Positions 54,882-64,000 of a DNA stretch of 64,000 nucleotides are shown piece by piece (position 1 is the first letter of the stretch; every line of letters begins with the position of its first letter). The notes under the pieces are model-generated. The model was not told the origin of the DNA. It worked only from the letters and a program-made list of their open reading frames with translations, and did not search any database. The translations under genes were made by a program, and so were the position numbers. Source of the stretch: Streptococcus oralis (GTDB lineage: Bacteria > Bacillota > Bacilli > Lactobacillales > Streptococcaceae); the NCBI RefSeq assembly GCF_001578945.1, contig NZ_KQ969550.1:403101-467100 (forward strand), written 5' to 3'.

Positions 54882-57527
54882 TTAGATTTCTTCTTTTTTA
54901 ATCAATTCTGTACGAATTTCTTGTGGCGAGAGAAGCCCTGAATGAACTGGATATGGGCGCTCAAGCAAGTCAAGGATTGTTTGTTGTTTTTCTGAAACAC
55001 GCACATTTTCTTGACTCATATTGTAGTAACGAAGTACATATCCTTCTTCGTTTTCAGCAACTTTAAAGGCTGTCGGGCAGACTTGTGGCAAGCTGAGAGC
55101 CGCATGATTCAATAGACTACCTGTCGTAGCAACACTACCTTCTTGTTTGGCAACTTGAAGGCTAGTAAATGGCGTTTGGAAAGCCTTAGCACGACGGAAA
55201 GCTGAGAAGCGTTCTCCTGCTTGGTGGCATTCAAGCGCAAACTCGACTTCAAACTCACGCAAGCACTGAGCCTCTGGTGTTGGGAAATAACCCCAGTCAC
55301 CTAACTCACCTGAGGCACGAAGAATGGTCACTGCAATGGTGTCGTCTCTAAGGATTTCGTATTCGTGCAATCCTTTATTAGCCACTGTAACCCCTTTTTC
55401 ATCATCATACAGACTGACAAAGGCTTGTTGGTGTTGAGGATTTTCAGGATTTTCCCATACAGGAGCTGGTTGGTTAGGGCGGGTCACGACTTCATAGATG
55501 CTTTCAGAATCATTGGTCTTGCTTTGGTTATGGGTGTTAACCAAGAGACGGATTCGGTGGTCTTTAGCAGTATTGGTAAAGCGAGTCTTGAAGCGAATCT
55601 GTGGATTATCAACAAAAATAGTCATTTCAGTTTCAAGAGGGATGGTTGTCAACTCCTCTGAACGTCCGGCTTCACGCGTCATAAACTCGATGATGCCTCT
55701 TTGTTCCGCATCTAGTTTTTCATCTGCACTGACAGGTATGGTCAATTCATGCTTGAGCAAAACTTTAGCAAAGCGAGCTGTATTTTCCAAGACTTCATAA
55801 CCTTTAAGCTCTGCATAGATTGGCTCTGTACCTTTTGGTTGGAAGTAAATGTACTCATTCCCGATGTCCCCGCGGTCTTCAAAGCGGATAAAGTCTTCAT
55901 AGGCTTCGTGAGTTGTTTTATCATAAACCGTTACGCCCTCATCCACACTTACCGTTACAAATGGCGTATCAATCACTCCGTTTTGGTAAATCCCATCATG
56001 ATGCACTTGGTCACCTTCAAGCAATTGGAAGGTTGTCCACGAAAGTGGAGCTAAGTGAACGGGGACTGTCACGCGCACTTGACGAGCGATACGAGCTTGG
56101 CGGAACTTGTCTTTTGGCAAATCATACTCAAAATTAGCTCCTAAATCTTCAATTTTCGCTTCTACAGCATGCCCCTCCAAATCTTCGACACGGTAGCTTG
56201 GCAAGGTAAGAGCGGCCATCTTCTTGTAACCTTCTGTTGGGTGCAATTCCTTGAAATCACAAGTCGCAACATCAATCACTGTGCTGACAGTATCGACCTT
56301 GTCATGCAAGCCTGTATTGATGACTGTAAAAAGATGATCGCTTTGCGCTTCGTGAGTTGCGATTTTGCCCTTCCATTCGTTGAGAAGGTTGATCTTAACA
56401 AAGTTTCCAACTTGGTTGACCTTGGCAAAACGTGTTTCCATCTCACGGTGAACCTCGTCCACGCTACAGCCACAGATACTGTCATGTGGCGCATTTTGGA
56501 GAAGGATCTTCCAAGCATAGGTCAACTGGTCCTTATGGTTGTGCCCACCAGTGATGACAGTCAATGGCTCCACTACTTGTTCTAGGAGGTTGCTATTTTC
56601 TTGGAAGGCTTGTTTGAGGTAAATGCGTGATGAAGAAGTGTTGGCAAGTGTGTACCAACCATCTGTTTCTTGACTGGTCAACTCACCTGTAACCGTAGAT
56701 AGTTGCTCAGGTAGGGCACTCTCTACTGCGTGGACATAGTCATCAAAAGAACTATGGATAAAGGTCACATCTGGGAAGAGTTCATTGGCCACACGAATGG
56801 CTTCGCTCAGATTTCGCTGTACAGGCTGGTGGTCGCAACCATTCATCATGAGCCATTGGTTGGTCGAAGCATAGTCCCGTACGTCTGACAATTTCTGTTT
56901 CCAAAAGGTTAGGGCTTCATCCTTATCAACTGGGATTTCATTTCCATTACTGTACCAGTTGGCAAAGAGGATACCGAGGACACGACTTCCGTCTGCACCC
57001 TGCCAGTACATTTCTGAAAATTGTGAAGTAAATTGCTCGTCTTCTAACACTTGGTTGTCAAAACCAATTGGTTTGACCCCACGACCAAAGGCTGCCACGT
57101 GGATGCCTGATTTTTGTAGGATTTGCGGAGCTTGGCCCATATTTCCAAAGGTATCTGGGAAGTAGCCAATCTGGGTAGATTTGCCCCACTTGGCTGTTTC
57201 TTGCTGCCCGATTAAGGTATTGCGGACATTTGCTTCACTAGAGATCAGGTAATCATCCTGCAAGATGTAAAAAGGCCCAATTTTAAGCTTGCCCTCATCA
57301 ATGTAACGCTGTACCTTGTCACGGTTTTCAGGGCGAATTTCCAAATAATCATCTAAAACAATGGTTTGTCCATCTAGGTGAAAACTCTTGAACTCTGGGT
57401 CATTTTCAAAGAGATCAAAGAGATTGTCAAAAAGCTCCACCAACTGCATGCGGTGGCTTTCAAAGGGTAGGTACCACTCACGGTCCCAGTGACTGTGAGA
57501 AATAATGTGTACAACAACGTTTTCCAT
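54882..57527 (-). CDS. Alpha-mannosidase, family GH38
   Basis: This 881-residue GH38 enzyme has no signal peptide. The zinc-binding HSHWDREW is at residues 11-18, and the nucleophile is D125 in YFPDTFGNMGQ. The C-terminal beta domains are complete. It resembles the pneumococcal alpha-1,3-mannosidase of the N-glycan cluster. It lies 204 bases upstream of the ROK gene start on the same strand, and GH125 precedes it. It removes mannose from imported N-glycans in the cytoplasm. Confidence 0.92.
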   Translation of the reverse strand: MENVVVHIISHSHWDREWYLPFESHRMQLVELFDNLFDLFENDPEFKSFHLDGQTIVLDDYLEIRPENRDKVQRYIDEGKLKIGPFYILQDDYLISSEANVRNTLIGQQETAKWGKSTQIGYFPDTFGNMGQAPQILQKSGIHVAAFGRGVKPIGFDNQVLEDEQFTSQFSEMYWQGADGSRVLGILFANWYSNGNEIPVDKDEALTFWKQKLSDVRDYASTNQWLMMNGCDHQPVQRNLSEAIRVANELFPDVTFIHSSFDDYVHAVESALPEQLSTVTGELTSQETDGWYTLANTSSSRIYLKQAFQENSNLLEQVVEPLTVITGGHNHKDQLTYAWKILLQNAPHDSICGCSVDEVHREMETRFAKVNQVGNFVKINLLNEWKGKIATHEAQSDHLFTVINTGLHDKVDTVSTVIDVATCDFKELHPTEGYKKMAALTLPSYRVEDLEGHAVEAKIEDLGANFEYDLPKDKFRQARIARQVRVTVPVHLAPLSWTTFQLLEGDQVHHDGIYQNGVIDTPFVTVSVDEGVTVYDKTTHEAYEDFIRFEDRGDIGNEYIYFQPKGTEPIYAELKGYEVLENTARFAKVLLKHELTIPVSADEKLDAEQRGIIEFMTREAGRSEELTTIPLETEMTIFVDNPQIRFKTRFTNTAKDHRIRLLVNTHNQSKTNDSESIYEVVTRPNQPAPVWENPENPQHQQAFVSLYDDEKGVTVANKGLHEYEILRDDTIAVTILRASGELGDWGYFPTPEAQCLREFEVEFALECHQAGERFSAFRRAKAFQTPFTSLQVAKQEGSVATTGSLLNHAALSLPQVCPTAFKVAENEEGYVLRYYNMSQENVRVSEKQQTILDLLERPYPVHSGLLSPQEIRTELIKKEEI

Positions 57528-57602
57528 AAAGGTAAACCTCTATCTAAATCAAATTTTTCTAGTTATATATTTGTTATTCTGTACTAATTTGAACCTAGCC
57601 GA

Positions 57603-58886
57603 CTAGCGAATATCCAAGTAATCCAAAACCAGTTCACAGAACATCATATTGGCCCAGGAGAACCATTCCCGTGAGAAGAGGGTTGGATCGTCTACGTGAA
57701 AACTTTCATGCATGACACCGGTTCCCCCATCGCAAGCGACTAGTTGATCCAAAATCGCTTTTTTTTCAGTCTTGTCCGTCGTGGTCAAACCTTGGATCAC
57801 GAGACCAATCGGCCAAATATAGCGGTAAAAAGTGTGAGGACTGCCCAGCCCCTTGGCCTGGGTTCCCTCATAGTAGTAGGGATTTTCTGGGCTAAAAATG
57901 GTGCGACGAGTCGCTTGATAGACCTCGTCTTCGATGCTACAATATCCCAGATAAGGGGCGGCTAGAAGGCTCGGAACATTGGGATCATCCATGATCCGGG
58001 CATGACCCAAGCCGTCTACTTCAAAGGCATAGATCTTCTCACCCTTTTGGTTGGTGGTGTAAGCATAGGTTTCAATTCCTTCCTGAATTTCAGCTTGGAG
58101 GCGTTTGGCTTCTGCAAGGATGCTCTTGGGATCAGCTACTATGTCCAGCTCTGAAAAGATTTCCTGCACATAGCCCAAGACCACAACCGCAAACATATTG
58201 GACGGGATCAAGTAGCTGTATTCACAGCGGTCGTCACTAGGACGAAAGGCCGACCAGGTCATCCCTGTCACCGCAAAATCTGGACCAAAACCATCATTTT
58301 CCAGCGTATCTTCCTTGCGGTCAGTATCACGGACAAAACGGTAAGGTGAGTTCTTATGATCCTGCTCTACTGTCCAGAGATGGAGGACCTCCTGGGTTGC
58401 TGTGACAAAGGTTTCATCAAACTGACTGGTCTCTCCTGTCTCCTTCCAAAGAAGATAAGCCAACTGCAAGGGATAGCACAGCGAATCCACTTCGTATTTG
58501 CGCTCCCAGATCCAGCCATTAAGATCCGTATGGTCGGTCTCATGGTGTCCCTTCCAGTTGTCTGTAATATTAAAAGAATTGGCATAGGGATCTTTGAGAA
58601 TCAAGGTCATCTGGCGTTTGACCAACCCAGCAATGGTCTTTCTGAGCTTTTCATCCTTTTTTGCTACATGGAGATAGGGCCGTAACTGGGCTGTCGAGTC
58701 TCGCAACCACATGGCTGGAATATCCCCAGTCAAGACAAAGGTCGAGCCGTCTTCTAAAATCTCCACTGTATTGTCCAAGGTATCGGTGTAGCAGCGTTCA
58801 AAAACTGCTACCCACTCTGGATGCTCCTTGGCCTTTTCCGCCACTTGATCCAGCCAGTCTCTTACGATTTCTTTTGTATAAACCAT
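57603..58886 (-). CDS. Exo-alpha-1,6-mannosidase, family GH125
   Basis: The product has 427 residues from ATG 58886, giving the family's usual MVYTKEIV start. AMWLRDSTAQLRPY (about residues 55-68) and HHETDHTDLNGW are characteristic GH125 active-site segments. The pneumococcal enzyme (SP_2144 from memory) is an inverting exo-alpha-1,6-mannosidase. It is followed by GH38, so the two act in order on the mannose core. It starts 46 bases after the end of the nrd terminator and needs its own promoter; only a TATACT (58928-58933) is suggested. Confidence 0.93.
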   Translation of the reverse strand: MVYTKEIVRDWLDQVAEKAKEHPEWVAVFERCYTDTLDNTVEILEDGSTFVLTGDIPAMWLRDSTAQLRPYLHVAKKDEKLRKTIAGLVKRQMTLILKDPYANSFNITDNWKGHHETDHTDLNGWIWERKYEVDSLCYPLQLAYLLWKETGETSQFDETFVTATQEVLHLWTVEQDHKNSPYRFVRDTDRKEDTLENDGFGPDFAVTGMTWSAFRPSDDRCEYSYLIPSNMFAVVVLGYVQEIFSELDIVADPKSILAEAKRLQAEIQEGIETYAYTTNQKGEKIYAFEVDGLGHARIMDDPNVPSLLAAPYLGYCSIEDEVYQATRRTIFSPENPYYYEGTQAKGLGSPHTFYRYIWPIGLVIQGLTTTDKTEKKAILDQLVACDGGTGVMHESFHVDDPTLFSREWFSWANMMFCELVLDYLDIR

Positions 58887-58931
58887 GGCCAACAAACTCT
58901 CTTTCAAACAAACATTTTTTCATTTTCAGTA

Positions 58932-59034: not shown

Positions 59035-59985
59035 CTAAAAATCATAGTCATCATCTAGCATTGCTTCTGCATTTCCCATTAAATAGCCCGCACCCACTTG
59101 AGAAAAGAAATCATGATTGGCTGTTTCAATCGAAATGCCATTCATAACAATTGGATTAACATCAGATGCTGTAATATCTGAAAAATAACTTTGAAAGCCC
59201 ATATTTTGTAGTGCTTTATTCGCATTGTATTTCACAAATACTTTTACCTCCTCCGCCAAACCCAGTGGCGCATAGACTTCATCTGTATATGCAAACTCAT
59301 TTTCTAAAAGATCATCCAAAAAGCGATACATCCATGTCGTAAACTCCTGTTGTTCTGCTTCTGTGAGCTCGTCAAAGGTCAAGCGAAATTTATAACCTAG
59401 GTAAGTTCCATGTACAGATTCGTCTCGAATTACCAATTTGATTAACTCTGCTAGATTAGCCAGTTTATTTTGTCCACGATACCAAAGCGGTATGAAAAAG
59501 TTGCTATAATATAGAATTCCCTCTAAAAACACACTCGCTACCATCACCTGTAAAGGGGTTCCGTGCTGGTACATTTCATTTACCCTTTGAGCCTTATATT
59601 GCATTTTGGGATCCTGATTCATCCAGTTATATATTTCCTCAATTTCCTTAAAGGTACTTAATGAAATCAATATGGTCCCGTATGTCTTAGCATGGATGGA
59701 TTCCATAAATGTAAAATCACTCAGAACCGCTCTCTCCTTACGAGTGCGAACGTGCTGTTTAATAGAATACAACCCTTCTTCCGATTGAAGCGTATCGAGT
59801 AAAGCTAGCCCCCCAACCGCTTTTTTGACTACTTCTTTTTCCGGATCTGATAGTCGCTTCCAGTCAAGTAAGTCATTTGATACAGGGACACGAGTATCAA
59901 TCCAAAATTGTGCTGTGGCTTTATCCCAAACATAGTCGTCTAGCTCATCCTCAACTTCTTTCCAATTCAATGTCTGATGTAACAT
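59035..59985 (-). CDS. nrdF: Class Ib ribonucleotide reductase small subunit NrdF
   Basis: This 316-residue protein keeps every ligand of the dimanganese-tyrosyl centre when compared with E. coli NrdF: D64, E95, H98, E155, E189 and H192, plus the radical Tyr at Y102 (in FMESIHAKTY). W28 of the radical path and the C-terminal DDDYDF tail for NrdE docking are present. It should be a normal active subunit, assembled with help of NrdI. AAAGGAGG precedes the ATG. It is last in the operon nrdI-nrdE-nrdF'-nrdF, 11 bases after the divergent paralog. Confidence 0.95.
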   Translation of the reverse strand: MLHQTLNWKEVEDELDDYVWDKATAQFWIDTRVPVSNDLLDWKRLSDPEKEVVKKAVGGLALLDTLQSEEGLYSIKQHVRTRKERAVLSDFTFMESIHAKTYGTILISLSTFKEIEEIYNWMNQDPKMQYKAQRVNEMYQHGTPLQVMVASVFLEGILYYSNFFIPLWYRGQNKLANLAELIKLVIRDESVHGTYLGYKFRLTFDELTEAEQQEFTTWMYRFLDDLLENEFAYTDEVYAPLGLAEEVKVFVKYNANKALQNMGFQSYFSDITASDVNPIVMNGISIETANHDFFSQVGAGYLMGNAEAMLDDDYDF

Positions 59986-59996
59986 ATAAATCCTCC

Positions 59997-60944
59997 TTAA
60001 AAGTCATAGTCATCGTCATGTGATTTCTCTATCCTATGAGCCGACATTTGTCCGAGGAGTTCGTGCTTTCTCAGTCTACTCAATACGCGATCAAGTGTGG
60101 AGAGAAGCTCCGTATCAACTGGGTACTTCGCTTCAACTCCGATACTCTCTAACAAATGATTGGCCTCTCTCTGTACAAGATTTTGAATCAGTTCTTGAGT
60201 AACAGGAGCCGTATAGAGCTCGCAAATAATCTTCTTCTCTGTTTTTAAAATCTGGTCAATCATTTCAAGGGCCCATGATTGAAATGAAATTTGATCAACT
60301 TTGTTCATTTTTGCTAAAAGTACATTCACTTTGTGTAGTAAATACTCGCAATGCAAGGACTCATTCAAGAGGATCATTTTCACCATTTCACCAAGATTGG
60401 TAAATCCCTTTTGAATCCACAACTTCATTAAAAAGGTGAGTTGGCTATAGGTCATAATCCCTTCAACACAGGTGGCCATAAAGCGCTTCTGAATCGCATT
60501 TTTGCTATGATATACCGTATCTACTCTCTCTAGTCGCTCTACTACCAATTTATGTTGGTCTACCCACTCAAATAAGGATGCCACCTCCTGTTCATCCTCA
60601 TTAAAGGAGTATAAAATAGTATTATAGGCCTTGGTATTTACCATTTCAGTGAACTGTAGATTGTTTACAATAGCAACCTCCTGTTGTGAGCGTTCACTAT
60701 GCCGTATAAACTCCTCTGCCTCCAACGACTGGTAAGTTGATAAATTTGCAAGAAAGATAAGCGAACGATTTAATTCTTGCTTTTCCTCTACCGACAAACG
60801 ATTAAAAGCAGGTTTGTCATTTTCAATTGGAATTCGATTGTCTAGCCAAAATAACGATGTCGCTCTCTCCCACGTAGCGTTATCCAATTCATCCTCAATC
60901 TCATTCCAGTTGATTGCTTTGTAATATAGAAATTTTTTTGACAT
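59997..60944 (-). CDS. Divergent second NrdF-like small subunit (nrdF') lacking two metal ligands
   Basis: This 315-residue protein aligns along its length with the neighbouring NrdF. The segment from ligand 1 to ligand 2 has identical length, so the comparison is firm. The first-site Asp becomes S69 and the first-site His becomes N103, while E100, E161, E195, H198 and the radical Tyr (Y107 in FTEMVNTKAY) remain. W33 (FWLDN) and the C-terminal DDDYDF tail are kept. It lies between nrdE and nrdF with gaps of 9 and 11 bases and has its own AAGGAGAG. It may form a beta-beta' heterodimer, or assist cofactor assembly, or bind a different cofactor. I infer; no activity is known to me. Confidence 0.85.
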   Translation of the reverse strand: MSKKFLYYKAINWNEIEDELDNATWERATSLFWLDNRIPIENDKPAFNRLSVEEKQELNRSLIFLANLSTYQSLEAEEFIRHSERSQQEVAIVNNLQFTEMVNTKAYNTILYSFNEDEQEVASLFEWVDQHKLVVERLERVDTVYHSKNAIQKRFMATCVEGIMTYSQLTFLMKLWIQKGFTNLGEMVKMILLNESLHCEYLLHKVNVLLAKMNKVDQISFQSWALEMIDQILKTEKKIICELYTAPVTQELIQNLVQREANHLLESIGVEAKYPVDTELLSTLDRVLSRLRKHELLGQMSAHRIEKSHDDDYDF

Positions 60945-60953
60945 CTTCTCTCC

Positions 60954-63128
60954 TTAAATCATACAAGATTCACAGCTATTTACACTGTTAAATTCGTCAT
61001 CCTCTGTATAGGTTCTGACATAATAAAGTGATTTTATCCCTTTTCGCCATGCGTAATTCCGAAGACGGTTTAAGTCACGTGTAGTTAGCATTGTGTTCCC
61101 TTTAGTTTTCCATTCATACAGTCCTTCAGGTAATTGTGAACGCATAAAGAGAGTCAAACTCATCCCCTGATCAATGTGTTTTTGCGCAACTGCATACACA
61201 TCAATAATTTTACGCTGATCCATGTCATAAGCGGTCGTATAAAATGGCAAGGTATCATTTGATAGATACGGAGCAGGATAAAAGAGCGATCCCACCTTTT
61301 TTTCCTGCCGATTTTCTACCAACTGAGTAATCGGATGAAGAGAAGCGCTCGTTTCATTGATATAAGAGATAGAACCATTAGGTGCCACCGCCAAACGATT
61401 CCGATGGTAGAGACCATCTTTCATGACTTTTTCCCTTAGTACTTTCCAATCTTCTTTTGTTGGAATAGGAATATTCTTAAAAATTGCTGCTATTTTAGGA
61501 AATCTAAATACAAACTCCTGCTCCACATATGGTGAAAAGTAACTTCCATCAGCATAGCGTGAATCTGCAAATTCGTAAAACGTTTCATGTCGTTCTTGTG
61601 CGATTTTATTGCTAGATACTAAAGAATGATAATTCAATGCTAAGAAGTAAGCTTCTGTAAATTCTAAAGACTCTTTTGAACCATACTTGATTTGATGCAA
61701 AGCGAGGGCTGTATGTAATCCCATCGCTCCGAGTCCTATCGTATGATAGAGACGATTTCCCTTATTTACTGTAGGCACCTCTTCAACAGACTCTAGATCC
61801 GTAACAGTTGTTAAGGCACGAACCATTGTATCAACAGAGGCAGCAAAATTCTCAGATTTCAACAAATTAACAATATTGGTTGACCCGAGATTGCAACTAA
61901 TATCCGTTCCCACCTCATGATAGGACAGATCATTATTTAATACAGATGGAGTCTGTGGTTGTAAAATTTCTGAACAAAGGTTACTCATGATGATTTTTCC
62001 TTTGACGGGATTCTCACGATTGGCCACATCAATGTTTAGAATATAAGGATATCCAGATTCCTGTTGCAAGCGAGAAATTTCCTGTTCCAATTCTCTTGCT
62101 TGAATAACAGTCTTTTCAATAGCTGGATTTGCAACCAATTGATCGTATTCAGCCGTGATATCTACGTACGAAAAAGGCTTCCCATAAACTTTTTCAACAT
62201 GATAAGGATTAAACAGATACATGGGTTGATTTGTTTTAATCAGCTCGTAATATTTATCAGGAACAACCAACCCCAGAGAGAGGGTTTTGACACGAATTTT
62301 TTCATCCGCATTCTCCTTCTTAGTTGATAAAAAGGCGAGAATATCCTGATGAAAGACATTCAAGTAAACGACCCCTGCTCCATTTCTCTGTCCTAGTTGA
62401 TTGCTATAGCTAAAAGAGTCTTCTAATAGCTTCATTACAGGAAGTACTCCCGAAGAAGCATGCTCAATTCCTTTTATAGGAGAACCACTCGCACGTAAGT
62501 TGGATAAATTAACTCCAACCCCACCGCCTAGTCTAGAAAGTTGCAAAGCAGAATTAACTCCTCGACCGATAGATAACATAGAATCATCGAGGTCTATTAG
62601 GAAACAAGAGACCATCTCACCACGCCGTTTCTTTCCTGCATTTAAAAACGTTGGTGTTGCGGGTTGGTATCGTTGGCTAATCATTTCCTCTGCAATTTTC
62701 ATCGCCAAACTCTGATCGCCATTTCCTAAATAGAGAGCATTAAGAAACACACGATCCTCAAACGATTCCAAGTAGGTTTTTGAGTCATTGGTCTTTAGTG
62801 CATATTGATTATAAAATTTATAGGCTCCCATAAAACTCTTAAAGGCAAAACCATATTCTTTGATTTTTTGATATAAGGCCTCTAAAAAATCACTGTCAAT
62901 CCTACCAACCTCATCGCGATACAAACCTACGACCTCTTCATCCACATAGTCCTCGCTAATCAAATACTGGAGGCGTTCTTTCAAACTTGAAAAATGCAAG
63001 GTATGAGGTTCAATTTCATTCTTTAAATAATTTGTTAGTGCTTCTCTATCATAATGAAGAGGAATTTCTCCATCAACTGGAATGTTCACCATATTGTTCA
63101 AAACAAAATAATCCTTAGTAGCTGACAT
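60954..63128 (-). CDS. nrdE: Class Ib ribonucleotide reductase large subunit NrdE
   Basis: This 724-residue protein (start chosen at ATG 63128 for GGAGG upstream; an open extension of eight codons overlaps nrdI further) is catalytically complete. The active Cys pair lies in EMVSCFLI and DISCNLGS. The thiyl radical Cys, with its Asn and Glu, is in MSNLCSEI. The radical-path tyrosines are in SLYYVRTY, and the C-terminal CESCMI accepts electrons from a NrdH-type redoxin. No ATP-cone regulatory domain is present, as usual for NrdE. It overlaps nrdI by 14 bases. No nrdH is in this operon. Confidence 0.96.
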   Translation of the reverse strand: MSATKDYFVLNNMVNIPVDGEIPLHYDREALTNYLKNEIEPHTLHFSSLKERLQYLISEDYVDEEVVGLYRDEVGRIDSDFLEALYQKIKEYGFAFKSFMGAYKFYNQYALKTNDSKTYLESFEDRVFLNALYLGNGDQSLAMKIAEEMISQRYQPATPTFLNAGKKRRGEMVSCFLIDLDDSMLSIGRGVNSALQLSRLGGGVGVNLSNLRASGSPIKGIEHASSGVLPVMKLLEDSFSYSNQLGQRNGAGVVYLNVFHQDILAFLSTKKENADEKIRVKTLSLGLVVPDKYYELIKTNQPMYLFNPYHVEKVYGKPFSYVDITAEYDQLVANPAIEKTVIQARELEQEISRLQQESGYPYILNIDVANRENPVKGKIIMSNLCSEILQPQTPSVLNNDLSYHEVGTDISCNLGSTNIVNLLKSENFAASVDTMVRALTTVTDLESVEEVPTVNKGNRLYHTIGLGAMGLHTALALHQIKYGSKESLEFTEAYFLALNYHSLVSSNKIAQERHETFYEFADSRYADGSYFSPYVEQEFVFRFPKIAAIFKNIPIPTKEDWKVLREKVMKDGLYHRNRLAVAPNGSISYINETSASLHPITQLVENRQEKKVGSLFYPAPYLSNDTLPFYTTAYDMDQRKIIDVYAVAQKHIDQGMSLTLFMRSQLPEGLYEWKTKGNTMLTTRDLNRLRNYAWRKGIKSLYYVRTYTEDDEFNSVNSCESCMI

Positions 63129-63588
63129 GTATTTTTTCCTCCACCTTCTCAAAACTAGCTAGTATATTTTTAGAAATTCTCTCCACATCTTCATCTGTTC
63201 CCCGTAATTCAAAAACATCAATAACAGGAAAACCAAACTGCTCTGCATATTGAAAAGCTGTCAAACAAAATTGCTTATTAAAATTTCGATTGCCACTCCC
63301 CACAATTCCTAAGCAATAACAGAAATTTTCTTGGTACTCCAGAAATTTTCGGAGATTCCCTGTCAGAATTTCTCGAAAACCAGTATCAATTCCATTCCCC
63401 CCCTCTAGATAAGATGGCAAAAAACTGACAAAAGGATCATCCACCGTGATTAGTTCCCCCTTCAAATCCTTTACATTCAGAGACTCAACTTCCCTATGGT
63501 ATGTTGTCTGTATATGTTGACTAACTCGTTGAACAAAGGAACTTGTGTTTCCACTCAAACTAATATAATAAAATCTAATTTTTTGCAC
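63115..63588 (-). CDS. nrdI: Flavodoxin-like NrdI
   Basis: NrdI supplies the oxidant that builds the manganese-tyrosyl centre of NrdF. This 157-residue protein has the flavin-binding ISLSGNTSSF near residue 9 and GIVGSGNRNFNKQF near 94, typical of NrdI. Translation starts at a GTG (63588) after AAAGGAGAAG. It is first of the operon; paired NrdR boxes lie just upstream. Confidence 0.93.
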   Translation of the reverse strand: MQKIRFYYISLSGNTSSFVQRVSQHIQTTYHREVESLNVKDLKGELITVDDPFVSFLPSYLEGGNGIDTGFREILTGNLRKFLEYQENFCYCLGIVGSGNRNFNKQFCLTAFQYAEQFGFPVIDVFELRGTDEDVERISKNILASFEKVEEKIHVSY

Positions 63589-63604
63589 GACTTCTCCTTT
63601 TTTG

Positions 63605-63620
63605 GTACAATATATTGTAT
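63605..63620. promoter_or_regulatory. NrdR box 1
   Basis: GTACAATATATTGTAT fits the NrdR-box pattern ACACWATATATWGTGT closely. It lies 17 bases before the nrdI GTG and is paired with box 2 at a 32-base distance. Confidence 0.8.
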
Positions 63621-63636
63621 ATCAACAAAATTGCAT

Positions 63637-63652
63637 ACGCTATATGTTGTGT
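63637..63652. promoter_or_regulatory. NrdR box 2
   Basis: ACGCTATATGTTGTGT matches the NrdR-box pattern at most positions. The 32-base start-to-start distance (three helical turns) to box 1 is typical of NrdR-repressed nrd promoters. Confidence 0.75.
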
Positions 63653-63731
63653 TTTTATTTTACTGTATCTAGTTGATTAAAAAATTGACATTCGTCAAGT
63701 TCCCGTAATTTTTTCAATGTTAGGAGTTTCT

Positions 63732-64000
63732 ATGTCCCAATCATGTTTTTATACTATTCCCCTTTTTAGCACGCTCTCATATGATGAACTTCAGAGTATC
63801 CATAGTCTGTTTCACCATAAGAAATTTAAAAAGGGCGAGTTGATTTTCTCACCCTTTGACGAGGAAAGTTTAATCATTGTAAATAGAGGACAATTTAAGG
63901 TCTATCGTCTGACGAATGATGGAACCGAGCAATGCATTCGTATCATCGACAAAGGAAATTACGAAGGAGAAAACTATCTCTTTGAAGAGAACAATCAGGA
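63732..64000 (+). CDS. Crp/Fnr-family regulator, N-terminal part
   Basis: The gene runs off the right edge; 89 codons are visible. The sequence has the cyclic-nucleotide-binding beta-roll pattern: KKFKKGELIFSPFDEESLIIVNRGQFKVYRL and then RIIDKGNYEGENYLF. This is typical of Fnr/Flp-like regulators in streptococci. GGAG lies 6 bases before the ATG. It is divergent from nrdI; the NrdR boxes lie between them. The effector and the DNA-binding half are not visible. Confidence 0.8.
   Translation, partial: MSQSCFYTIPLFSTLSYDELQSIHSLFHHKKFKKGELIFSPFDEESLIIVNRGQFKVYRLTNDGTEQCIRIIDKGNYEGENYLFEENNQ

Follow-up and report, generated by a model that had tools for sequence, protein, structure and literature searches.

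A nrdI-nrdE-nrdF'-nrdF operon of Streptococcus oralis and other Lactobacillales: a probable second class Ib ribonucleotide reductase with a beta-beta' small subunit

Ribonucleotide reductase beta' subunits have been described in complex with beta in yeast and Plasmodium (PMC2704937, PMC3824934); here and below, what we say of cited papers refers to the sections of text available to us. In published accounts of yeast, Rnr2 depends on Rnr4 for its activation, folding or stability (PMC2704937, PMC3267527), and PfR4 is reported in an alpha2-beta-beta' complex (PMC3824934). In Candidatus Liberibacter asiaticus, a short NrdB is encoded by a second small-subunit gene, and a heterodimer has been speculated (PMC5154197). 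In class Ie R2 proteins (VPK and QSK types) it is three Glu ligands that are replaced (PMC11846895), as an earlier note made from the DNA sequence analysed here also stated. A tail Tyr is described as essential and as conserved in all characterised class I enzymes, and only one half of their alpha2-beta2 interface is described as engaged at any one time (PMC8463856). A bacterial NrdF that is full-length yet cofactor-less was not mentioned in the available sections of the literature searched, the scope of which stopped short of subscription papers and preprints.

The window, i.e. the whole stretch of DNA analysed, is 64,000 nucleotides of S. oralis contig NZ_KQ969550.1. Four genes on its minus strand lie in the order nrdI-nrdE-nrdF'-nrdF, and their coordinates agree with the operon described in the earlier note. 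The first, nrdI (63115..63588; P0004, 157 aa, GTG start), encodes the flavoprotein activase; its product scored 193.4 bits with NF002714 (cut-off 190) and 122.3 with PF07972 (cut-off 27), and fell below the cut-off of TIGR00333 (67 bits versus 74.65). The class Ib large subunit is encoded by nrdE (60954..63128; P0003, 724 aa), scoring 1049.9 bits with TIGR04170 (cut-off 750) and carrying Cys, YY and CxxC motifs that we take to be those expected. A TTG start further upstream would give an NrdE of 732 aa. Downstream are nrdF' (59997..60944; P0001, 315 aa), a relative of the small subunit that lacks the usual cofactor ligands and that we call beta', and its partner nrdF (59035..59985; P0002, 316 aa), an ordinary class Ib small subunit.

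Alignment of the pair placed the NrdF ligand set at D64, E95, H98, E155, E189 and H192, with the radical Tyr at 102. The assignment of individual NrdF ligands to metal site 1 or site 2 is assumed here. At the same columns NrdF' has S69, E100, N103, E161, E195 and H198, with Tyr107. The replacement of the first Asp by Ser (codon 60738..60740, minus strand) and of the first His by Asn (60636..60638, minus strand) was thus read correctly in the earlier note, as were the equal spacings in the two proteins (31 residues from ligand 1 to 2, 34 from ligand 4 to 5) and the retention of the Tyr, three Glu, the second His and the C-terminal hexapeptide DDDYDF (60000..60017, minus strand), the NrdE-docking tail. 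Two further differences, both on the radical-transfer route, had been overlooked there. The Asp that precedes the third Glu (D188 in the 'RDES' of NrdF), presumably a transfer-path residue by equivalence to D237, is Asn194 in NrdF' (60363..60365, minus strand), and the tail Tyr of NrdF (Y301 in 'AGYLMG'), which we take to be Y356 in E. coli numbering, is absent from NrdF'. The profile scores separate the two proteins: against TIGR04171 (class Ib NrdF, cut-off 355), NrdF scored 420.9 bits and NrdF' only 170.3. NrdF' nevertheless belongs to the R2 fold family (PF00268, 149.8 bits versus a cut-off of 33.6), and an AF2 model of beta' (pLDDT 86) matches solved NrdF structures with Z of about 35.

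To survey the residues across orthologues, we compared 41 distinct beta' with 112 distinct ordinary NrdF. NrdF-like ORFs shorter than 270 aa (five) and rows in which the first ligand was masked (L002, L146, L150) were left out of the counts, and a class Ie row (L108) and four orphan rows (L141, L142, L147, L148) were set apart. The full D-E-H-E-E-H ligand set was present in 112/112 ordinary NrdF, which had all ten checked residues, and in 0/41 beta'. The first Asp was absent from all 41 (A in 23, S in 13, Y in two, and N, T and F), which is how beta' was defined, the independent part of the ligand test being the path and tail residues; judged from the sequences, its absence in every orthologue is more than chance. 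At the first His column, 26 have H, 13 have N and one each has S and A, and the lineages that keep this His have either lost other ligands or lost the first Asp alone. Conservation of S69/N103, which the earlier note had proposed to look for, therefore holds for the loss of the Asp but not for the exact letters, nor for the His.

Amongst the remaining ligands, the second Glu was kept in 39/41, whilst the third Glu and the second His were each lost in 19/41. These last two are kept in the Streptococcus type, which retains four of the six ligands and the radical Tyr, whereas the Lactobacillaceae/Enterococcus type (for example AKHESF and YEHESY) has neither. The radical Tyr column holds C, I, V or F in 13/41. 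In place of the path Asp every beta' has either N (22) or G (19), and none has Tyr at the tail column. In eight of the 41 a Tyr occurs at another tail position, 7-32 residues from the end, and in the beta' of L060 the string YLAG lies 34 residues from the C-terminus. By comparison, the path Trp was kept in all 41, and all 41 end in the docking peptide DYx[F/L], for which binding to NrdE is predicted from the sequence. The best-conserved blocks are the N-terminal 30 residues, the QQE segment and this docking tail, in a group where pairwise identity falls as low as 25%. There were no internal stops in any beta' match listed; since the later comparison took full-length ORFs only, intactness within the 41 is partly by selection.

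A whole ordinary NrdF follows on the same strand for 69 of the 72 beta' ORFs in loci (several of which are re-fetches), and in the other three the partner is present but cut by the end of the locus. In the loci examined, a sister R2 without ligands is thus accompanied by an intact partner R2, the arrangement of a beta-beta' small subunit. nrdF' immediately precedes nrdF, and in some loci the two genes overlap by 4 bases. nrdI is upstream in 43/72, the others having at most 1501 bases upstream except for L102, where the upstream part is cut by an insertion sequence. One genome (G405) has nrdI-nrdF'-nrdF without nrdE and encodes two NrdE elsewhere; as the pair persists there without an adjoining nrdE, the tightest unit is beta' plus beta.

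Orthologues of beta' occur in Streptococcus, Lactococcus, Enterococcus and Lactobacillaceae, in five Lactobacillales families altogether, and are often plasmid-borne. A scan of genome contigs found beta' in 31/36 loci (the five without are L062, L064, L065, L066 and L068). Outside Lactobacillales, none was seen in a class-level search of 398 genomes at E<=1e-55, a threshold that diverged ones could escape; four genomes outside the order matched, of which L140, an ordinary NrdF, was the one read residue by residue. Each of 15 beta' carriers in the order sample had at least three NrdF-like matches, so the beta'-containing enzyme is probably an extra reductase of its carriers. In annotated plasmid records the beta' gene is labelled simply as a second 'subunit beta'. 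Similarly, Lundin et al. 2010 entered pGdh442 as 'NrdE, NrdF, NrdI' (PMC3019208), and in a Lactobacillus pentosus plasmid paper the two genes are each listed as a beta subunit having reductase activity (PMC6662855).

An earlier set of loci, without those added later, was used for the tree and for the dN/dS and distance tests. In a 61-row tree, made after removing redundancy at 93% for beta' and partners and 85% for other NrdF, the beta' formed one group (99/99) and the partner NrdF another (100/100). With either beta' type removed, the remaining type was still placed near the partner clade. The tree thus points to a single origin of beta'. Partner NrdF have 19 partner-specific residues. Distances among beta' and among partners, with redundancy removed at a beta' distance of 8%, correlated with r=0.935 over 24 pairs, a value not reached in 10000 permutations, which indicates that the two clades co-evolved. 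The mean distance was 0.611 for beta' and 0.258 for beta, i.e. ~2.4-fold more divergence in beta'. Of 19 pairs picked by hand, 14 gave beta' dN/dS values of 0.087-0.237 and five were not computable for beta' because synonymous changes were saturated; the values obtained indicate purifying selection on beta'.

Upstream of nrdI, two NrdR-box-like 16-mers are candidate sites in the promoter region (63607-63622 and 63637-63652, together spanning 63607..63652, minus strand). Paired AT-rich boxes resembling these can be made out before nrdI in several other loci; a strict NrdR-box pattern matched in only 9/42 upstream regions, and that of the window had no match. A candidate Crp/Fnr-type palindrome, TTGACATTCGTCAA (63685..63698), lies between nrdI and a divergent gene on the plus strand (63717..63998), of which the window holds the start before the gene runs past its edge. 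For both kinds of site the consensus is an assumed one. In four Streptococcus-type plasmid loci, the position of the divergent gene is occupied by an annotated Crp/Fnr-family regulator.

We consider it likely that the operon encodes a second class Ib reductase with a heterodimeric beta-beta' small subunit in which beta' is inactive. The Mn or Fe site, the tyrosyl radical and the full transfer route to NrdE would all reside in NrdF (beta), which NrdI would mature. NrdF' would be a permanently inactive sister: although its R2 fold, N-terminal segment, path Trp and docking tail are retained, it would be unable to assemble a normal cofactor or a normal transfer chain. Its role would probably be structural: it may fold, stabilise or asymmetrically load beta, and by sitting where a second beta would otherwise dock on the NrdE dimer it would leave one cofactor and one radical route per holoenzyme. 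Several observations speak against a heterodimer. Correlated distances would also be expected if the operon is simply inherited as one piece and its products never touch, the divergence of beta' exceeds that expected if its dimer face were tightly constrained throughout, and both the Tyr that some beta' have at another tail position and the ligands and radical Tyr of the Streptococcus type sit awkwardly with an inactive subunit. The larger proposition, that this is a hard-wired asymmetric class Ib reductase carried by plasmids through the lactic acid bacteria as a conditional second enzyme, under NrdR-like and Crp/Fnr-like control and with an origin separate from those of the yeast and apicomplexan beta', is one that we would as readily doubt as believe.

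The earlier note had offered a heterodimer, a chaperone-like subunit or a one-metal or other-metal variant, and had allowed for a decaying copy. Constant pairing, co-evolution, the docking tail, the residue losses and purifying selection give the first two good, if indirect, support. A functionless, decaying nrdF duplicate would account for lost ligands, for evolution faster than that of NrdF and for the truncation of the operon next to insertion sequences on two plasmids (L102, L109). We nevertheless reject it as scarcely credible: the listed ORFs are intact and under purifying selection, and a single tree group spread over five families, with identities down to 25%, shares a common core of losses and an invariant form of docking tail. 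A radical-generating subunit with one metal, another metal or no metal is conceivable for the Streptococcus type, where E100, E161, E195, H198 and Tyr107 could form a mononuclear site. As a common function it is very unlikely, given the loss of the third Glu and second His in the Lactobacillaceae/Enterococcus type, the replaced radical Tyr in 13/41, the missing path Asp and tail-column Tyr throughout, and the full-site partner that always adjoins it. Nor is NrdF' a class Ie variant, as loss of the first Asp in 41/41 and retention of the second Glu in 39/41 do not match the class Ie pattern, in which Asp and His stay and three Glu are replaced.

The alternative to which we give most weight, though still an unlikely one, is a maturation factor that meets NrdF or NrdI during cofactor assembly only and stays outside the holoenzyme. 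The frequent upstream nrdI and the G405 locus, where nrdI adjoins the pair and nrdE is elsewhere, would suit such a factor, and yeast Rnr4 aids Rnr2 folding and diiron stability (PMC2704937, PMC6277125). However, a protein that does not meet NrdE has no need of the docking peptide, so its retention in 41/41 counts against a maturation-only role. Retention of the tail with the catalytic residues gone is also what a decoy or brake would show, competing with NrdF for the docking site on NrdE. We think this improbable, since a protein encoded directly before nrdF, in some loci with overlapping genes, would be made in constant proportion to the very enzyme that it inhibits, and in G405 NrdF' stays with NrdF rather than with NrdE. 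A phage origin was rejected as well: 281 and 326 phage records matched, every best place amongst the best 15 listed of each having <60% identity, and with 281 and 328 matching places hardly any record has two.

If the heterodimeric reading is true, the half-of-sites behaviour of class I enzymes would here have been turned into a fixed architecture, and a bacterial enzyme lacking one of its two cofactors would offer a natural, easily handled test of class I asymmetry. It would also be an independent bacterial parallel to Rnr2/Rnr4, with its genes in food bacteria and on plasmids.

Ordinary class Ib NrdF are the nearest tree relatives of beta' and share its fold and operon context, but beta' fails on the ligand set, the path Asp, the tail Tyr and the TIGR04171 cut-off. 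Class Ie proteins are likewise NrdF relatives in which metal ligands are replaced, and they too accompany nrdE and nrdI and occur in Lactobacillales; the class Ie example L108 (DVHPKH) keeps the Asp, both His, the Tyr and the path residues, whereas in beta' the Asp and the path are gone and an intact partner lies alongside. The short NrdB of Liberibacter is, in the sections available, a 125-residue form in that species, whereas beta' is a full-length co-evolving clade. The apicomplexan R2_e2/PfR4 proteins resemble beta' as a long-branched, non-canonical R2 clade with the C-terminal docking motif kept; in these eukaryotic proteins the iron ligands are described, in the same partial sources, as kept and the radical Tyr as varying, whereas beta' has always lost the first Asp. 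Yeast Rnr4 resembles beta' in having several ligands replaced, in lacking a cofactor and in being the sister of an intact R2, but it is a eukaryotic R2 of separate origin, whereas beta' is a bacterial class Ib protein encoded in an operon with NrdI, and its set of lost ligands differs and is more variable. Membership of the Rnr4 family by descent was rejected: phmmer matches in the PDB were led by bacterial NrdF, and beta' branches among Lactobacillales NrdF (in a tree without eukaryotic R2). A physical heterodimer is established for Rnr2/Rnr4 and predicted for the bacterial pair; by analogy, the best reading is that the beta' pair would work like Rnr2/Rnr4, from an independent and bacterial origin.

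The operon occupies the minus strand as four closely spaced genes: nrdI (63588-63115), nrdE (63128-60954), nrdF' (60944-59997) and nrdF (59985-59035). The NrdF has all six ligands and passed the 355-bit cut-off of the class Ib NrdF model with 420.9 bits. NrdF' scored 170.3 bits against that model, under the cut-off, and 149.8 bits against the Pfam R2 family (cut-off 33.6); its closest named relatives (89-90%) are from S. oralis strains and one Streptococcus sp. The NrdE carries the motifs expected of this subunit: the Cys, the Tyr-Tyr and, in the tail, the CxxC. A second nrdE and nrdF are found on another contig of the same genome (86.6% complete), and the window operon is therefore an additional one; the readable columns of the second NrdF are ordinary, its first ligand being masked. 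Downstream of the operon, at 54882-58907, are two genes, presumably for glycoside hydrolases of the alpha-mannosidase type (GH38-like and GH125-like); at two other loci (L005 and L006), too, nrdF is followed by a gene of similar kind.

Alignment of NrdF' with the neighbouring NrdF bore out the earlier note: the first Asp is replaced by Ser69 and the first His by Asn103, the 31- and 34-residue spacings are equal in the two proteins, and E100, Tyr107, E161, E195, H198 and the DDDYDF tail are retained. Two further losses had not been noted. The Asp of 'RDES', which corresponds to E. coli D237, a residue of the transfer path, is Asn194 in NrdF', and the Tyr of 'AGYLMG' is absent. We equate this Tyr with E. 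coli Y356, which a review describes as conserved in all characterised class I enzymes and as essential, since it hands the radical from one subunit to the other (PMC8463856).

Residues were counted across all loci in the final set, in 41 beta' and 112 ordinary NrdF, all of them distinct sequences. All 112 ordinary proteins have D, E, H, E, E, H, the radical Tyr, the Trp, the path Asp and the tail Tyr. The first-ligand column of beta' holds A (23), S (13), Y (2) or, in the others, N, T or F, although a missing first Asp is the defining criterion of beta' and this column is thus not independent. The path Asp is N in 22 and G in 19. None of the 41 has Tyr in the tail column, in a region that is hard to align; eight have a Tyr at some other position 7-32 residues from the C-terminus, and in one beta' (L060) the string YLAG occurs 34 residues before the end. 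The path Trp and a C-terminal DYx[F/L] are present in all 41, and the radical Tyr in 28, with C, I, V or F in the other 13. The 22 beta' of the Streptococcus and f2 types retain the third Glu and the second His; the 19 of the Lactobacillaceae/Enterococcus type (e.g. AKHESF, YEHESY) have lost both. Judged from the alignments, these varied losses converge: the normal cofactor and normal transfer chain would be gone, with docking retained.

The fold appears to be preserved. The predicted model of NrdF' (mean pLDDT 86.3, pTM 0.84; 38-row alignment) matched solved class Ib NrdF structures, with TM at 0.80-0.90 for the top class Ib rows and Z close to 35 across 268-288 residues. The Lactobacillaceae-type beta' also gave a confident helical predicted model (pLDDT 84.9). 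Among 25 beta' representatives, conservation is highest in the first 30 residues, in a QQE segment at about residue 88, and in the docking tail; the stretch preceding the tail, where NrdF has the transfer Tyr, varies freely.

Beta' is present in 7 of 147 genomes of the genus (at least 296 bits; next match 170.6) and in 15 of 395 genomes of the order, eight with the Streptococcus/f2 type (model A2, at least 287 bits) and seven with a more divergent type (model A6, at least 349 bits; next 275). These 15 carriers, all with beta' inspected at residue level, fall in five families by family codes, and named carriers include Streptococcus oralis, S. henryi, S. alactolyticus, Lactiplantibacillus, Loigolactobacillus, Levilactobacillus and Enterococcus gallinarum. 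Each of the 15 gave three or more NrdF-like matches, which would fit the presence of an ordinary NrdF in addition to the pair, and two NrdE were found in all seven carriers tested. Of 440 matching plasmid records, 165 have a protein at least 80% identical to the Lactobacillaceae-type beta', and the Streptococcus type is present in six inspected plasmids from E. faecium and Lactococcus.

The loci contain 72 beta' ORFs; some places, among them that of the window, enter this number more than once. A whole ordinary NrdF lies downstream on the same strand in 69; the other three (L009, L010 and L149) do have the partner, cut by the locus end. At one extreme the two genes overlap by 4 bases, at the other they lie about 930 bases apart. 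A thiol peroxidase gene, tpx, lies between them in L101 (8316-8807, annotated) and, 94% identical, in L009 and L010 (2819-3307) and L039 and L040 (7319-7807), hinting at a peroxide-related role; the operons with intervening tpx are from some Streptococcus and one Enterococcus faecium. The order nrdI, nrdE, nrdF' is seen in 41 of the 72 loci, and nrdE alone is upstream in 29, of which 28 have at most 1501 upstream bases and one (L102) is disrupted by an insertion sequence. The remaining two are one place in a single genome (G405) with nrdI-nrdF'-nrdF and no nrdE; thus, in this one genome, beta' has remained together with beta in the absence of nrdE. Its two NrdE sit elsewhere and are 64-65% identical to that of the window; in six other carriers the second NrdE is 64-68% identical and the operon NrdE 73-75%. 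Some rearranged or differently labelled loci were also seen. In L102 just the end of nrdE is left, after an IS6-family element; on the plasmids of L100 and L101 the nrdI upstream of nrdE is recognisable by tblastn (~55% identity) and is not annotated under that name, the listed product there being a DUF1971 protein; and on an E. faecium plasmid (L109:5001-5324) all that follows nrdI is a fragment resembling an NrdF-like protein, adjoining an IS30 transposase gene.

In a tree of 61 rows, beta' formed one group (99/99) and the partners another (100/100), separate from other NrdF. The program warned of long branches; when one or other beta' type was removed, the remaining type still fell near the partners, with the exact branching weakly supported. 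Pairwise distances of beta' and partner were correlated across 24 non-redundant pairs (r=0.935; 0 of 10000 permutations as high) and also within three lineages (1, 0 and 52 of 5000 permutations). The dN/dS of beta' was 0.087-0.237 (computable in 14 of 19 pairs) and that of the partner 0.019-0.098, apart from a single pair with hardly any synonymous change, which gave 0.265. Nineteen residues are peculiar to the partner clade. The pairing, tree, distances, dN/dS and partner residues are all compatible with a single ancient duplication, after which both copies were maintained together.

Upstream of nrdI, several operons have two AT-rich boxes resembling NrdR sites. The window has such paired boxes plus a Crp/Fnr-type palindrome at 63600-63700, between nrdI and a divergent gene. 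These are resemblances to the NrdR and Crp/Fnr consensus sequences. A strict NrdR-box pattern matched 9 of 42 upstream regions, the window's not among them. The palindrome TTGA-N6-TCAA lies 110-117 bases before nrdI in all eight Streptococcus loci inspected with long flanks (the window and L034-L040), with one match among the other 34 regions. A Crp/Fnr-family gene is divergent beside the operon in four annotated Streptococcus-type plasmid loci and absent there in both Lactobacillaceae plasmid stretches inspected.

Two other arrangements were encountered. In L141, L142, L147 and L148 (genomes G154 and G161, of one Lactobacillales genus code), an orphan nrdI precedes an NrdF-like gene with the ligand set S-E-N-S-T-N and neither transfer-path residues nor docking tail; nrdE was absent within the 4.8 kb inspected. 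In L142 the two form one 465-aa open frame, an NrdI-NrdF-like fusion. The arrangement at these four loci is possibly a repurposed NrdI-NrdF module. A Lactobacillus paragasseri plasmid (L108) carries a class Ie-like nrdF-nrdI-nrdE operon (VPK-type, DVHPKH).

On the best reading, NrdF' would have a structural role, as the beta' of a putative beta-beta' dimer. The review cited above describes an asymmetry in the active class Ia complex, of which one half at a time is engaged, and reports a crystal structure of class Ib to be similar (PMC8463856); a dead beta' in a putative heterodimer would fix that asymmetry. The passages covered by our literature search yielded no bacterial full-length beta'; a short NrdB in Liberibacter is the subject of a speculation (PMC5154197). 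They did yield yeast and apicomplexan beta', and these known subunits are the parallels for NrdF': yeast Rnr4, with three ligands missing, pairs with Rnr2 in a heterodimer and there stabilises the cofactor of Rnr2 (PMC2704937, PMC3267527), and Plasmodium PfR4 joins PfR2 and R1 (PMC3824934).
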